Below, piece by piece: positions 40,557 to 54,142 of a DNA stretch of 64,000 bases. The notes beneath the pieces are model-generated. The model was not told the origin of the DNA. It did not search any database and saw nothing but the letters and a program-made list of their open reading frames with translations. The DNA is from Victivallis vadensis. Lineage in GTDB: Bacteria; Verrucomicrobiota; Lentisphaeria; Victivallales; Victivallaceae. The stretch's first letter is position 1. The number at the start of each line of letters is the position of its first letter. The stretch lies in NCBI RefSeq assembly GCF_003096415.1, contig NZ_QEKH01000009.1, positions 1 to 64,000 on the forward strand. The letters are read 5' to 3'. The translations under genes were made by a program, and so were the position numbers.

Positions 40557-40935
40557 TCGCCGCCGGGTGCTACCCGGTCGTGGTCCAGCGGCGAAAGCGC
40601 TGGCCGTCGGAGACACCCGTGGGCGAAACGCCCAGCTCAGGTGCCTGATTGAAAATCAGGCCGTGAGCCCACGGAGGTCTGGAGGCCGTAAGGCCGTAAG
40701 ACCCGCCTGCCGCGAAAGCGGCATGGCTTCCCAATTCATGGCCCATCAGGGGGAATGCCTGCCATTTTAAAGGCAGGCAGGTCTGCTTGCCCTTACGGGC
40801 AGCAGACCTTGTGCGCTACGCGGCCTGATTTGCAATCAGGCTCCGACAGCTGGGCGCTACGCGCACAATTGCCTCCGGCGGCCAAGGCGCTTCGCCCTTG
40901 GAACCCGACCGGCAACGTGCCAGTGCGGAGTTACT
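40557..40935. repeat. Hairpin-rich intergenic array B
   Basis: About 380 nt between ung and the rhamnosidase gene are almost entirely foldable into at least ten hairpins. Clear examples are CCGGGT/ACCCGG (40563-40577), CCAGCG/CGCTGG (40585-40603), CCTGATT/AATCAGG (40644-40660), TGCCGC-GAAA-GCGGCA at about 40708, TGCCTGCC/GGCAGGCA (8 bp) and AGGTCTGC/GCAGACCT. Some are nested in longer pairings. A 34-nt core at 40882-40915 is identical to 51073-51106 in the element at 51048-51755. No coding frame is supported. Confidence 0.8.
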
Positions 40936-47668: not shown

Positions 47669-50128
47669 ATGAACTATTTCCGCCTCCTCCTCTGCAGCCT
47701 GTTCCTTGCGGCGACCGTTTCCGCCGCGCCGTTCGACACCGCCGACGCAGTCGCGGCCCACGCCCCCGGCAGCGTGTTCACGCAGGGCGAACCGCTGCGC
47801 TTCTCGCTGAAGCCCTATGCGGCCTCCCCGCTCAAGTGGACGCTTCGCGACTGGCGGAACCGTGAACTGCGTTCCGGCGACTGGCCCGGCGCGGGCAAGG
47901 CGGAGCTGACCCTTGCCGCACTGCCGGACGGCTACTACATTCTGACGGTCGAATCGCCGGAGGCGGCTTTCGACGGCTTCCGCAGCTTCGCGGTCGTGCC
48001 GGACCCGGCAACCCGCCGCCGCAATCCCGACACTTTCTTCGCGATGGATTCGGCGCAAAGCTGGCTGGCGCGCCCGGATTCGGCCAACGTGCGCCATCCG
48101 GGGGACGCCTACGAGCTGGTCTCCGAAGTGATCCGCCGGGGCGGAATCGACGTCGTGCGCGAGCGCATGAGCTGGGCGGAGTGCGAAGCCGTCCCGGGCA
48201 AGTTCGACTGGAAACAGTACAAGCTCAACGCCGACCTGCTCTCCAGACGCGGCGTCGGCATCTCCGGCATGTACCACAACGCCCCGCGCTGGGCGAAGAC
48301 CAACACCACCCACCTGCCCGGCGATCTGGTCGCCGTCTACCGGTTCGCCCGCAAGGCCGCGGAGACCTTCAAAGGACAGATGACCGACTGGGAGTTCTGG
48401 AATGAGCAGGACATCGGCTTCGCGCCGGAATCCGCCTGGGATTATGCCTCCGCGCTGAAAGCCGCCTATCTCGGCTTCAAGGCTGCCGATCCCGCGCTGC
48501 CGGTCGCGATCGGCGGCTATGCGATGACCCCGATCGCGGAGTACGCCGACGTGGTGATGGCGAACGGCGCGAAGGATTACTTCGACATCTTCAACATCCA
48601 CGCCTACCGCCCGATCAGCAACTATGCGCAGATCATGGAGGATATCCGCAATTACCTGAAGCGGCACGACATCGCGGACCGGCCGGTCTGGTTCACCGAA
48701 AACGGCACCGACTCCGAAGGCTCCGGCCGGATTCCGAGTTATATCGCCGGACTCAAGGCCCATTCCCCCGAACAGGAGCTGCTCGTCGCGGAGCTGCTCC
48801 CCAAGATCATGATCCACATGCAGTCGCTCGGCGTCGACCGCGACTTCTTTTTCGTGCTGCCTCCCTACAGCGAGCGCGACGGCAACAAGGACTGGGGACT
48901 GATGCGGCGCGATTTCACGGTCAAGCCGGGCTATGTGGCCTTTTCCACCCTGTCCAGCCAGCTCGGCGACGCGGAATACCTCGGCACCGTGGCGCTGGCC
49001 GACGGCGTCTCCGGCTTCCTGTACCGCCGCCCGGACGGTTCGCAGAGTCTGGTCTACTGGAGCGTCTCCCCGCTGGAAACCGAGAGCAACCGGCCCGACC
49101 GCAAATTCGACGACCTGCTCGAACGCCCCTTCCGGCTCGCCGCCGCCCCGGGAAGCTATCGCGGCATCGAACTTTTCGGCACTCCGTTTGAGGTGAAAAC
49201 CTCCGGAAATACGCTGGAGCTGACCGCCACGCGGCTGCCCGCGATCCTGACCGGACTCTCCGGCCTGAAGCCGACTGTGCCCTTCCGCCGCCTCTCCAGG
49301 CCCGGCACGGCGGAAAGCGGATACGACCGCTCCATCGTGTTCCGCACGGAACTTTCCAAAGATTTCGTGCTCTCCGGCGGCAAGAGCAGCGTCGACGTCA
49401 AAAAGGACGATGCGGCTTTCAAACTCCAGATATTCAACCTCTCCGACCGGGCCAAACGCGGTACGCTCGCGCTCTCCGGCGGCAGATTCGGCGGCGTCCC
49501 CGCCGAAGTCACGGTGCCGCCTTTCGGCAAGACCGAACTGAACCTCACTTTCACCCCTGAACTGGACAAGGAGTTCCGGGGCGCGCTCCGGGTCGGCGGC
49601 ACCTTCGACGGCAAACCGGCCTCGGAATTGGTCGCGCCGGTGCGGGTGGTCGGCAAGCTGCTCGACGGCAGCCGCAAGGTCGATCTGGTCGGAATGAGCG
49701 ACCCGGTCAATTTCCGCCATAACAGTTCCGGCAGGCAGACGATCACCTACGACCCGGAAGCGCAGGGGCTGAAGTTCCACACGCTCTTCCCGCCGAACGT
49801 CGACCGCTGGGTCTACCCGGAGTACATGCTCCAGCTTCCGCAGGAATCGCTGAAGGATGCCCTCGGCATCGCGTTTGAAGTCAAGGTTTCCGCCCCCAAG
49901 CAGGTCAAGCAGATGCTGCTGATGACGGTGTTGGGCAAGGAAAAGGAGCACGGCGAATCGATCAACCTCAACGTGGTCGCGCCGACCGCGCAGTGGGAGG
50001 AGCGGATCGTGCAGTTCCCGGATTCGCTCGACCCCGACCGCATCCGGCAGCTGCGGCTGGGGCTGAACTCCCTCGTTGACGATATCACCTACTGGGTCCG
50101 CAACGTGCGGATTCTCTATCGGAACTGA
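47669..50128 (+). CDS. Secreted GH39-like clan-A glycoside hydrolase
   Basis: This 819-residue protein begins with a signal peptide (YFRLLLCSLFLAATVSAA). A (beta/alpha)8 barrel covers about 120-440. Glu246 in WEFWNEQD fits the acid/base and Glu344 in VWFTENGTDS fits the nucleophile of retaining clan GH-A enzymes of the GH39 kind. Beta-rich domains follow to the C-terminus. It follows the pseudopilin gene after 21 nt. Xylosidase, iduronidase or another specificity cannot be chosen from the sequence alone. Confidence 0.82.
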   Translation: MNYFRLLLCSLFLAATVSAAPFDTADAVAAHAPGSVFTQGEPLRFSLKPYAASPLKWTLRDWRNRELRSGDWPGAGKAELTLAALPDGYYILTVESPEAAFDGFRSFAVVPDPATRRRNPDTFFAMDSAQSWLARPDSANVRHPGDAYELVSEVIRRGGIDVVRERMSWAECEAVPGKFDWKQYKLNADLLSRRGVGISGMYHNAPRWAKTNTTHLPGDLVAVYRFARKAAETFKGQMTDWEFWNEQDIGFAPESAWDYASALKAAYLGFKAADPALPVAIGGYAMTPIAEYADVVMANGAKDYFDIFNIHAYRPISNYAQIMEDIRNYLKRHDIADRPVWFTENGTDSEGSGRIPSYIAGLKAHSPEQELLVAELLPKIMIHMQSLGVDRDFFFVLPPYSERDGNKDWGLMRRDFTVKPGYVAFSTLSSQLGDAEYLGTVALADGVSGFLYRRPDGSQSLVYWSVSPLETESNRPDRKFDDLLERPFRLAAAPGSYRGIELFGTPFEVKTSGNTLELTATRLPAILTGLSGLKPTVPFRRLSRPGTAESGYDRSIVFRTELSKDFVLSGGKSSVDVKKDDAAFKLQIFNLSDRAKRGTLALSGGRFGGVPAEVTVPPFGKTELNLTFTPELDKEFRGALRVGGTFDGKPASELVAPVRVVGKLLDGSRKVDLVGMSDPVNFRHNSSGRQTITYDPEAQGLKFHTLFPPNVDRWVYPEYMLQLPQESLKDALGIAFEVKVSAPKQVKQMLLMTVLGKEKEHGESINLNVVAPTAQWEERIVQFPDSLDPDRIRQLRLGLNSLVDDITYWVRNVRILYRN

Positions 50129-50141
50129 CGGGAGAACCGGC

Positions 50142-51032
50142 ATGGATTTCACCGCTTTCACCTCACCGCTCCTGCTGCGCGGCGACGCGCACACCGCCTA
50201 CCGCGATCCGGCGGCGTACTTCCATGCCGGGGTCTTTTATCTCTATTTCACGCTGGTGGAAACCGAACCGGACGGGACGGTCTACCTCTATCTGGCGATG
50301 ACAACCAGCACCGACCTGATCCGTTTCACCCCGGTGCGCAAACTCTCGCCGCGCGACCGGACGCTGAACCTCTCCAGCCCCGGCAACGTGATCCGCTTCG
50401 GCGGCCGCTTCTGCCTCTGCTGCCAGAGCTACTGCCGCGAAAACGGCGAAAAGTACGGCAACGCGAACTGCCGCCTCTGGCTGCTGCGCTCCGACGACCT
50501 CGTCCACTGGGACGCGCCGGAGCTGCTGCGGGTCAAGGGCGATGCGGTTCCCCGCGAGGAGATGGGGCGCATGATCGACCCCTATCTGCTTGAGGACAAG
50601 GACGAACCGGGCAAGTACTGGTGCTTCTACAAACAGAACGGCGTGTCGCTCTCAAGCTCACGCGATCTCGAACACTGGGAGTATGCCGGACATACCGACT
50701 GCGGCGAAAACGTCTGCGTCGAAGTGGTCGGCAGCGAGTACTGGCTCTGGCACTCGCCGCCGAACGGCATCGGCCTGATGCGCAGTTCCGACCTGATCCA
50801 CTGGGAGCGCGATGAAACGCTGATCACGCTCGGCCAGCGGGATTGGCCGTGGGCGCAGGGGCGGCTGACCGCCGGAGCGGTGCTCGACCTGCGCCGGGAG
50901 CCGGCGGTCGGCAAGGCGCTGCTCTTTTTCCACGGCACCGGCCCGAAGGACGAGCGGACCGTGTTCGACCAGTACGCCGGCATCGGCTTCGCATGGAGCG
51001 ACGACCTGACGCACTGGGAGTACATCCGCTGA
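50142..51032 (+). CDS. GH43-like five-bladed beta-propeller hydrolase
   Basis: This 296-residue protein has repeated propeller blades with YRDPAAYFHAGVFYLYFT, MIDPYLLEDKDEPGKYWCFY and CVEVVGSEYWLW, which supply the two Asp and one Glu arrangement of GH43/GH32-like enzymes. It has no signal peptide. GGGAG precedes the ATG at 50142, 13 nt after the GH39-like gene, so it is the last gene of the regulator-pseudopilin-hydrolase operon. Its stop is 16 nt from the hairpin element at 51048. Confidence 0.75.
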   Translation: MDFTAFTSPLLLRGDAHTAYRDPAAYFHAGVFYLYFTLVETEPDGTVYLYLAMTTSTDLIRFTPVRKLSPRDRTLNLSSPGNVIRFGGRFCLCCQSYCRENGEKYGNANCRLWLLRSDDLVHWDAPELLRVKGDAVPREEMGRMIDPYLLEDKDEPGKYWCFYKQNGVSLSSSRDLEHWEYAGHTDCGENVCVEVVGSEYWLWHSPPNGIGLMRSSDLIHWERDETLITLGQRDWPWAQGRLTAGAVLDLRREPAVGKALLFFHGTGPKDERTVFDQYAGIGFAWSDDLTHWEYIR

Positions 51033-51047
51033 ACGCTTCAGCAATAT

Positions 51048-51755
51048 CCGGGATTTCGCTCCTCTGGAGCGACCAAGGCGCTTCGCCCTTGGAACCCGAC
51101 CGGCAAGGTGCCGGCGCCAGGTACTTAGATCCGGGAAAGGCGTATCGCCTTTCCCTCCAGTAAGGGGAGGCTCCGGTAGAGACTGACATGGTTGTACAGG
51201 AGCGGCACACCGCTCCGGTCGGCGCAAAGCCCGCTTTTTTGCGGGCTTTAGGCACTCCCTGCGCCTGCTGCCGCCGGAGGTCACGCGCAGAACCTCCAGA
51301 TGCTGACTATCTGATGTGAAGTTACTCTCATGGAGGCTGAACTCTACTTGTTTCTATAATACAGGCAAGGTCCAGTAAGGCTCGCATTCAAAGATATGCT
51401 TGCCTGTGATATGACGATTGCATTGTTGCCTGACCTCGCTTTGCGTATATCGGCAGATAAACTCTTATCAGCCTCCATCAGGGTATCTGTCTATTATTTG
51501 GTCAGCATCTGGAGGCTCCGCGCGTGACCTCCGGCGGCAGCAGGCGCAGGGAGTGCCCGGCGTCGGCAAAAAAGCCGACGCGGTTGCCGACCGGAGCGGT
51601 GTGCCGCTCCTGTACGCTCCATGCCTGTCTCCATCAGGGCTCCCCCACCCGGAGGGAAAACCGGAACGGTTTTCCCAGATCTCGTACCCGGCGCCGGCAC
51701 CTTGCCGGTCGGGTTCCAAGGGTGCCTTGGTCGCTCCCAAGGAGCGAAATCCCGG
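51048..51755. repeat. 708-bp inverted pair of hairpin-array elements
   Basis: The left copy (51048-51307) and right copy (51501-51755, inverted) align along their whole length. Each holds six hairpins in the same order: left 51057-51071, 51073-51092, 51100-51114, 51133-51155, 51199-51216 and 51226-51249; right 51732-51746, 51716-51730, 51694-51708, 51654-51676, 51593-51610 and 51560-51581. Stems 4 and 6 differ between copies yet stay fully paired. A 38-nt linker (51251-51288) is identical in both. The 193-nt spacer contains ATGGAGGCTGA/TCAGCCTCCAT and ACAGGCAAG/CTTGCCTGT. Each copy starts 15-22 nt after a convergent stop codon. Confidence 0.9.
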
Positions 51756-51777: not shown

Positions 51778-54120
51778 TTACTTCCCGGCGGCGGAACGGA
51801 CGACGTTGCCGCCCTCTTCGAGCTTCGTTACCGAATCCGGGTCGTACAGCACGCCGCTTTTCAGGCCGGGCAGCGATGATTCCCACACATTGTTCAACAC
51901 CCGCACCGTGCCGGAATTTCCCGCTCCGATCAGCCCGCGCTTCTCCTCCTTCACCGGTACCGTCTCATGGTTCACGAACCGGTTGCCGCTGATGGTCACA
52001 TTGTCGGCGGTGCTGACAAACACCGGCGAGCCGGTCGATTCGCGGAACTCATTGCCGGTGATCCAGATATCGCGAATCACCGGATAGGGGCTTTTCAGCA
52101 GTGACGGATCGCTGCGCAGATAGCTGTTGATGTAGATGTCGGGGCGGTTTTCGCTGACATAGCGGCCCCGGCGGTTCACGCCGGTGAAACGGTTGTTGCG
52201 GATCACCACGTTGCGCACCCCGTACCCCTCGCTCCACACGTCGAAGGTGTAACCGGTTTCGAGCTTGATCCCGGCGGCGTTGCCCTCTTCAAAGCGGTTG
52301 TTCTCAATCGTCACGTTCTCCGCCATCAGCAGCAGCCCGCGCGGAAAGTGGTGGATATGGTTGTTGCGGAAGATCAGGTTTCTCGAACCGTAGCTGCGGT
52401 TGAACAGCACGAAACCGCCGCCCGCCGGCTCCGGCACCGGTTTGTCGAAGGTGATTTCGCCCTCGCGGCGGTTGCGGAATTTGATCGCGGTGATCTTGCC
52501 GGTGAAGCCGGTCGGCGAAAAATCGTCGTTGCAGAGTTCGATCGGGTCCCCGACCCGGAAATAATCTCCCGGATGGCTGTTCAGATTGGTGGTCATGATC
52601 CGGTTCTCATCCAGCTTCACCGCGTAGCCGTTCAGATCGTGGAAGTTCATGGTGTCGTCACAGCTGTAGGCCAGCTCGCAGTTCTCCAGCCGGAAGAAAC
52701 CGGCCGACGAAATCGTGTGCATCGCATCGGCGGTGGTGCTGCAGGGGCGCTTCGACCCGGCGGGCGGCGCGATCCGGCAGTTCAGCAGCTGCCAGTGGTG
52801 CTGGCGGCCGCTGGTGATCACCCCCATGCCGGGCGCGGAGGCGACCGTCACGTTTTCCAGCGTCAGGTGCTGGTTGTTGCGCAGGAAAAACGCGCCGAAA
52901 TCATAGCCGTAGTGACGCATCAGAAAGGTTTCGCCGGGCATCGCGCTCTTGAACATGCCGGGACGGGAGGTCAGCTCCACCAGATTCGGCTCCAGGAAAC
53001 GGGCCTCCGGCCGGTTCTGCCCCTTGTTCATTTCGAGCGTGATCCGCACCGGGCGCACCGGATCGGCCTGCCGGTTGGCCGGATCGATCCGGCTCAGGTC
53101 GGCGACGCGCAGATCGGTGTTCGGAAATTTCTCATAATCGACGAAACGCAGCCGGATGCTCCTGCGGTCCGGCGCAACCGAATCGACCGTGACCACGCTG
53201 GCCAGCGGGTCGCGCTCCCAGTCCCAGTCAACCGTGAAGTTCTTCAGCTCCAGCCGGGTGGAATTCGAGACCGCGATCAGCTGCCGGTCGCCGCCGGTGC
53301 GGTGGAAACGCAGCTCCGCCCCCTGTCCATCCAGCTCGAAGTCGGTCAGCGCATTGAAGATCAGCGGTTTTTCCCCCTCAAAACGGTAGACGCCGGGTTC
53401 CAGAAACAACCGGGCGGGAGCCTGGCGGCGGACCGTGTCGATCGCCCGCTGCAGAGCGGCGGTATTGTCTTTTGACGCGGTGGATACGCCGAATTCCTTC
53501 GCGTTGAACTCCTTGCGACTCTCCTTTTTCGGACGGTCCACCGTGAATTCCTCCGAACCGGTCGGCAGCACGGCCGGAAGCGGTACGGCTTTCGCCTGCC
53601 GCGGCGCCGGAATTTCCTTCAATTCGATCGGTGTCACGGTGATATCGTCCACCAGCGCGCGCACGCCGAAATGAGTGTGAACCTGAAGCGAATAGTCATC
53701 CGGCTTCTCCGGCACATTCAGCCGGAAAGTGATCTTCTCCTCCTTGCCGACCGTCTGCGGCGTCAGCATCCCCGCGTCACTGAGCTCGTGGTTAGCCGAC
53801 AGCGGGCGGATCAGGAACAGCAGTGAAGCCCGGTCGTTCGCCTTGTCCGTCACCTTCGCCGTCAGGCTGATCTTATAACTGCGGCCCGGCTTCAGCACGC
53901 CTTTGGGCAGGCTCCACACCCCGTTCCACTCCGAATCGCTCGTTCTGGTATCGACCGCCAGCGAACGGGAACCGGAGAGCGGCGCGGCCGTTTCAATCCC
54001 GGCATACCGGCGATCGAACCGCTCCTTGCCCAATCCCTGTTCAAAATCGAATACCGCCGGAGTCGCCGCCGGCAGCGCCGCCGCCACGGCCAGAGCACTG
54101 TAAATCATCATCTGTTTCAT
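51778..54120 (-). CDS. Secreted right-handed parallel beta-helix protein
   Basis: This 780-residue protein has a signal peptide (IYSALAVAAALPAATPA), a carbohydrate-binding-like beta-sandwich (about 20-175) and a beta-helix (about 205-765) of pectate-lyase/GH-like repeats, with EFNAKEFGVSTASKDNTAAL at the helix start and units such as LIFRNNHIHHFPRGLLLMAEN. The ATG at 54120 has GGGGAG upstream. It is the last gene of the minus-strand regulator-pseudopilin operon; its stop is 22 nt from the hairpin element. The reaction type is unknown. Confidence 0.82.
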   Translation of the reverse strand: MKQMMIYSALAVAAALPAATPAVFDFEQGLGKERFDRRYAGIETAAPLSGSRSLAVDTRTSDSEWNGVWSLPKGVLKPGRSYKISLTAKVTDKANDRASLLFLIRPLSANHELSDAGMLTPQTVGKEEKITFRLNVPEKPDDYSLQVHTHFGVRALVDDITVTPIELKEIPAPRQAKAVPLPAVLPTGSEEFTVDRPKKESRKEFNAKEFGVSTASKDNTAALQRAIDTVRRQAPARLFLEPGVYRFEGEKPLIFNALTDFELDGQGAELRFHRTGGDRQLIAVSNSTRLELKNFTVDWDWERDPLASVVTVDSVAPDRRSIRLRFVDYEKFPNTDLRVADLSRIDPANRQADPVRPVRITLEMNKGQNRPEARFLEPNLVELTSRPGMFKSAMPGETFLMRHYGYDFGAFFLRNNQHLTLENVTVASAPGMGVITSGRQHHWQLLNCRIAPPAGSKRPCSTTADAMHTISSAGFFRLENCELAYSCDDTMNFHDLNGYAVKLDENRIMTTNLNSHPGDYFRVGDPIELCNDDFSPTGFTGKITAIKFRNRREGEITFDKPVPEPAGGGFVLFNRSYGSRNLIFRNNHIHHFPRGLLLMAENVTIENNRFEEGNAAGIKLETGYTFDVWSEGYGVRNVVIRNNRFTGVNRRGRYVSENRPDIYINSYLRSDPSLLKSPYPVIRDIWITGNEFRESTGSPVFVSTADNVTISGNRFVNHETVPVKEEKRGLIGAGNSGTVRVLNNVWESSLPGLKSGVLYDPDSVTKLEEGGNVVRSAAGK

Positions 54121-54142
54121 CGTCGTTCTCCCCATAATAAGA

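Follow-up and report, generated by a model that had tools for sequence, protein, structure and literature searches.

A palindrome between two convergent genes

The segment at positions 51048–51755 of the window (the whole 64,000-nt stretch of Victivallis vadensis DNA that was analysed) lies between two convergent genes, one on the plus strand (50076–51032) with its stop codon 15 nt from the segment, and one on the minus strand (51778–54135) with its stop codon 22 nt from it. The segment is a single imperfect palindrome of 708 nt, without strand as a whole, and a member of a dispersed repeat family, here called family A. The initial annotation described two inverted copies of a structured element of ~255 nt. 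The inverted arms are real, and sequence comparison within the window confirmed that both carry the same six hairpins in identical order; the two 'copies', however, make up one repeat unit between them, and such half-units are paired genome-wide. When the arms of the window copy are compared with one another, the inverted pairs I2, I4 and I5 are 94–100% complementary and the pairs I1 and I3 are 74–82% complementary.

The left arm (51048–51310, plus strand, ~260 nt) contains the terminal stem GGGATTT (51050–51056), whose partner AAATCCC is located at the right end (51747–51753), followed on the same strand by hairpin 1 (51057–51071, the 'long' allele CGCTCC-TCT-GGAGCG), hairpin 2 (51073–51092, the CCAAGG..CCTTGG allele, the alternative being GCAGGG..CCCTGC), hairpin 3 (51100–51114, CCGGC-AAGGT-GCCGG, common to other families and to genus relatives), hairpin 4 (51133–51155, the GGCG allele), the nearly invariant hairpin 5 (51199–51216, GGAGCGG-CACA-CCGCTCC), hairpin 6 (51226–51249, the AAAGCCCGC-T6 allele) and an invariant 38-nt linker (51251–51288). 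An asymmetric conserved centre (51311–51493), which is doubled in several other copies, separates it from the right arm (51494–51755, minus strand), which is inverted with respect to the left one and carries other alleles at hairpins 4 and 6. The right-arm hairpins 6 (51560–51581, the GTCGGC-T6 allele), 5 (51593–51610) and 4 (51654–51676, the ACCG allele) are likewise read on the minus strand. The two-sided differences noticed between the arms were borne out: hairpin 4 reads GGGAAAGGCG/CGCCTTTCCC on the left and GGGAAAACCG/CGGTTTTCCC on the right, and hairpin 6 reads AAGCCCGC-T6-GCGGGCTT on the left and, in arm orientation, GCGTCGGC-T6-GCCGACGC on the right, while the 38-nt linker GGCACTCCCTGCGCCTGCTGCCGCCGGAGGTCACGCGC does not differ between the arms. 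The fold of the entire 708 nt is far beyond chance (−531 kcal/mol, z = −40.6 against shuffled sequence), with a single arm folded by itself reaching z = −4.3.

A dispersed family with IS982-type ends

A genome search returning only this pair of arms had been named in advance as an outcome that would speak against a structured element, but ~35 full-size copies of family A were found in the same genome (33 extracted by a core pattern, together with L189 and L226, which have a variant linker). At least 40 arms were matched by a DNA search with the arm, and the core pattern matched at 31 forward and 32 reverse sites, arranged as inverted pairs; the seemingly unpaired matches are contig ends or neighbours of a variant arm. 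Since the arms are paired genome-wide at near-constant spacing, the repeat unit is the whole palindrome. Full copies are palindromic, with about six hairpins in each arm on either side of a conserved centre; they are mostly ~705–720 nt long and range overall from about 660 to 965 nt, the longer ones having either a doubled centre (~+95 nt) or nested insertions, and none of the scored copies contains a coding ORF. The partly duplicated centre of L123, L128, L129, L136 and L189 corresponds to a second CAGGCAAG..CTTGCCTG hairpin, and L226 is of similar length; L111, L114 and L131 carry insertions of ~125–130 nt within the arm by hairpin 6, apparently nested modules. At L124 (G000 C17:88731-89447), the two sides carry inverted versions of ~26 nt of flanking sequence with a stop-like TAAACC stretch in it, a pattern resembling the duplication of an arm along with its flank.

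Below the full size of 660–965 nt, the family continues as a size ladder of small relatives, from 30-nt hairpins through forms of 34–40 nt to forms of 48–63 nt, and these small relatives (30–115 nt) hold only the outermost hairpins. The terminal motif GGGATTTCGCYYY was counted 116 times, whereas a reversed control contained none. DNA shared with family A was detected in two of 30 relatives, essentially as the outer piece of ~50–70 nt, and in 77 further family-level relatives the core pattern was no more, or little more, frequent than expected by chance. The hairpin-3 module GACCGGCAAGGTGCCGGYGCC, on the other hand, is present 215 times in the genome of origin; three congeners have 35, 27 and 18 occurrences, and elsewhere in the phylum sample there are 0–3 per genome. 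Given these module counts in congeners and the full copies in one species, the modules are spread across part of the genus, with only their full assembly being species-specific. One congener, G005, has tandem and dispersed multi-hairpin repeats of its own (L031–L045), which share a CGCTTCGC-loop hairpin and have different stems (CCAAGG or CCGGGG). The region at 40557–40935 of the window, which had been suggested for inclusion with both copies in a covariance model, turned out to belong to a second multi-hairpin palindromic repeat, family B, which has dozens of copies (in tandem at 332-nt spacing on contig C32) and only ~59 nt in common with family A.

The ends of the elements point to an insertion sequence. 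Some family A copies are flanked on one or both sides by ACGCCGTGTGCAAGTTTCCTGAA, a sequence with 48 occurrences in the genome, many of them at contig ends, where the assembly is interrupted by a long repeat. One such contig-end sequence (L185) is the start of an IS, and the same IS start in congener G005 (L215) precedes an ORF matching the IS982 transposase model NF033520 (transpos_IS982), the match covering the first third of the transposase and not reaching the cut-off that the model sets for the whole protein. Two IS types, alike in their terminal repeat, are found at many contig ends of the genome (L182, L185, L188). Within family A, 15 of 70 ends match the terminal repeat ACGCCGTGTGCAAGTTT, as do ends of small relatives. 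The suggestion that the element may be mobile and non-autonomous is supported by L189, a full-size copy (854 nt including the terminal inverted repeats, TIRs) with the IS982-type terminal repeat at both ends and a perfect 6-bp target site duplication (TSD), GAAATA. Two small relatives, L163 (113 nt) and L170 (98 nt), also have both repeats and 6-bp TSDs (CAATAC and ATATTC, respectively). No TSD was found at L122, L123 and L129, full-size copies with both terminal repeats, which weakens a simple transposition history. The left end of the window copy has no terminal repeat and its right end retains TTCAGGAA (8 nt) at most, so that its own transposition would be assigned to it by family membership.

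Ends lacking the terminal repeat show a weak GCATC(C/G)GGGATTT consensus in about half of the cases, which suggests either another type of end or a preference for certain targets. Insertion into hairpin loops was considered as a rule for repeat-less copies and rejected, the flanks being no more complementary than mismatched pairs except at L120 and L124. At lysS (L120), seven of eight other genus members have a lysS match with at least 66% identity, and no empty site was readable in these eight genomes, in which the downstream neighbour is not conserved. At the family level, IS982-type TIRs, a 6-bp TSD, multiple dispersed copies and the lack of an own transposase correspond to the hallmarks of miniature inverted-repeat elements (MITEs), the TIR not being present at the window copy. 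Only the small relatives fit the size typical of MITEs (<300 bp); the full copies are too long, and the term MITE-like is therefore preferred to MITE proper. Family A thus probably represents MITE-like, non-autonomous mobile elements with reshuffled hairpin alleles.

Probable hairpin exchange and the origin of paired stem changes

Typing of nine positions yielded 69 combinations among 70 arms, each hairpin occurring as a few discrete alternatives. Across the 60 alignable arms, stem-paired columns are linked almost completely (r2 about 0.98), and for columns 11–25 nt apart r2 is 0.40–0.57 inside one module versus about 0.03 between modules at the same distance (1/n floor, 0.017), a contrast that is descriptive, as the module blocks were drawn by hand after the linkage had been seen. 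The flat linkage floor beyond 26 nt is independent of the choice of blocks. Alleles show no consistent dependence on arm side, and the two arms of one element are little associated, with a weak association for hairpins 1 and 2. In family B, which has other hairpins, linkage among 31 arms likewise decays to the floor beyond 26 nt.

Such a mosaic could also be produced by an assembly that joins reads of different copies, and the draft does consist of 87 contigs with breaks inside IS copies. However, the median length of the longest exact block that two copies have in common is 65 nt, and just 6% of bases fall within shared blocks of at least 127 nt, so that the copies would be resolved by reads of at least 150 nt; moreover, near-identical IS copies break contigs where family A copies mostly do not, and family B shows the same pattern in the same assembly. 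An artefact is thus improbable.

The orientation of hairpin loops provides a further indication of mechanism. In hairpin 4, the loops GTTCC/GGAAC, GTTTC/GAAAC and GGCAC/GTGCC occur in the two orientations at 21:8, 10:4 and 5:3, respectively, and further loops at 6:1, 3:1 and 2:1, while the T6 and CTTCG loops are never flipped (68:0 each). A loop flip inside an otherwise unchanged arm requires an inverse copy of the hairpin, which is the mark of template switching or of inversion across the stem. Template switching has been reported to be capable of creating and repairing stems in one event, and of maintaining them (PMC8794818).

The paired stem changes had led to the proposal that two-sided changes with conserved linkers mean selected structure. 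This does not follow from the pattern, given that discrete hairpins assort independently across the 60 arms. The covariation is real and, with linkage outside modules close to zero, cannot be ascribed to phylogeny. Homology-dependent exchange can join only in identical linkers, and heterologous hairpins would therefore move whole without selection. The rare stem changes also speak against the proposal: seven break a pair and two keep it, where 34% keeping is expected, although these numbers are small and hairpin 2 adds little to them owing to a hand-set pairing that is offset by one column. Rare alleles number eight in 74 stem columns and 57 in 178 other columns, a scarcity that could reflect either constraint or template-switching repair. 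A structured functional RNA (a non-coding RNA or 3′ UTR) whose stems are under selection and change through compensatory substitutions one base at a time would agree with the ~99% of stem cells that are paired across the 60 arms and with the nearly complete covariation of paired columns but not of their neighbours. Nevertheless, the changes are discrete whole-hairpin alleles with few one-sided intermediates, the loop flips call for an inverted-copy mechanism, the full copies are found in a single species and with IS terminal repeats, no promoter match was obtained, and the window element matches no Rfam family either at the gathering threshold or at E≤1. This explanation is accordingly very improbable. 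For the 'compensatory' changes, the best reading is an exchange of whole hairpins together with template switching; they do not prove selected RNA structure.

A history that would account for these observations begins with an IS982 transposase acting in trans, which may have placed the copies; these would have survived mainly between gene 3′ ends, where no promoter is broken, and many would afterwards have been stripped of their outer terminal repeats. Whole hairpins would then be swapped between copies by short tracts of conversion or recombination with junctions in the identical 20–40-nt linkers, and template switching inside the palindromic stems would flip hairpins and rewrite both sides of a stem together. 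Together, the two processes could yield the paired stem changes of the window copy, and selection on RNA would not be needed.

Convergent location, related systems and significance

Among the scored copies, 22 of 32 lie between convergent genes, against a background of 15 among the 111 remaining gaps of the sequence, gene calls being those of a simple codon-usage script, and the distance to both stop codons is often 2–30 nt. At least two further copies, L112 and L127, also appear convergent by eye, with the stop of a minus-strand gene at most 25 nt away. Transcripts of either gene that read through the element would fold into a very long hairpin; some influence on the 3′ ends of transcripts is therefore likely, if secondary, and a two-way transcript-end role for the element is plausible. 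It is possible, though doubtful, that the element has been domesticated as a two-way terminator or 3′-end stabilizer, kept by selection since the stable read-through hairpin ends or protects both transcripts. The convergent location near both stop codons, the extreme fold energy, the 30-nt relatives that by eye directly follow stop codons, the roughly threefold scarcity of rare alleles in stem columns and the intactness of the element where terminal repeats are lost are all in line with domestication. On the other hand, promoter avoidance alone predicts the same location and explains it as well as a positive transcript-end role does, a search for bidirectional terminators (GC stem with T run) found two sites, both on the minus strand, against 1.0 expected and hence no clear intrinsic terminator, most convergent gaps within the window have no copy, rare stem changes show no bias towards keeping pairs, and the element is not conserved in relatives.

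Comparison with known repeats places the MITE-like reading in context. The BOX elements of pneumococcus are modular intergenic repeats, composed of boxA, boxB and boxC, that are able to form stem-loops. Family A resembles them as a modular intergenic repeat with stem-loop capacity, but differs in that its modules have several alleles in linkage equilibrium and its unit is palindromic with a fixed hairpin order. IS982-derived MITEs exist elsewhere, as exemplified by MITECca01 of Cardinium, which is about 240 bp long (PMC9769881). Like MITECca01, family A is non-autonomous, with IS982-type TIRs, many dispersed copies and no transposase; unlike it, family A is ~700 nt long, palindromic throughout, built of exchangeable hairpins and concentrated between convergent genes, with most copies lacking terminal repeats. 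REP/BIME elements associated with RAYT transposases (PMC2817692) are palindromic intergenic repeats of alternating orientation, and mobilization of family A by such a Y1 HUH transposase would be in keeping with its palindromic, intergenic inverted pairs near gene 3′ ends. Against this, family A is far larger (~700 nt), its members include IS982-type terminal repeats and 6-bp target duplications, and no Y1_Tnp domain (PF01797) was found in the genome by a search that was positive in five of 14 controls; a RAYT/REP origin was therefore rejected as extremely improbable. Quasi-palindromic hairpins rewritten by template switching (PMC8794818) share with family A the two-sided stem changes in single events and the maintenance of stem perfection, but were described in RNA genes, whereas here a dispersed mobile element and shuffling between copies are involved.

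A more far-reaching suggestion, which is tentative and rather unlikely as a whole, is that hairpins are shuffled efficiently in this bacterium, whether through recombination or through template switching while single strands are folded, so that dozens of dispersed palindromes stay in near-complete linkage equilibrium at the ~25-nt scale, and that convergent genes have come to use the resulting elements as their two-way transcript ends.

Selected RNA structure is usually considered to be best demonstrated by stem changes on both sides between conserved flanks. Family A provides a natural case, with 60–70 arms in one genome, in which near-complete changes of this kind are explained by swapping and flipping, and it thus calls for caution in covariation-based RNA discovery where repeat families are concerned. 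It also allows the formation of perfect stems by template switching, the bacterial tolerance of 700-bp palindromes and the possible recruitment of mobile elements as transcript ends of convergent genes to be tested directly.
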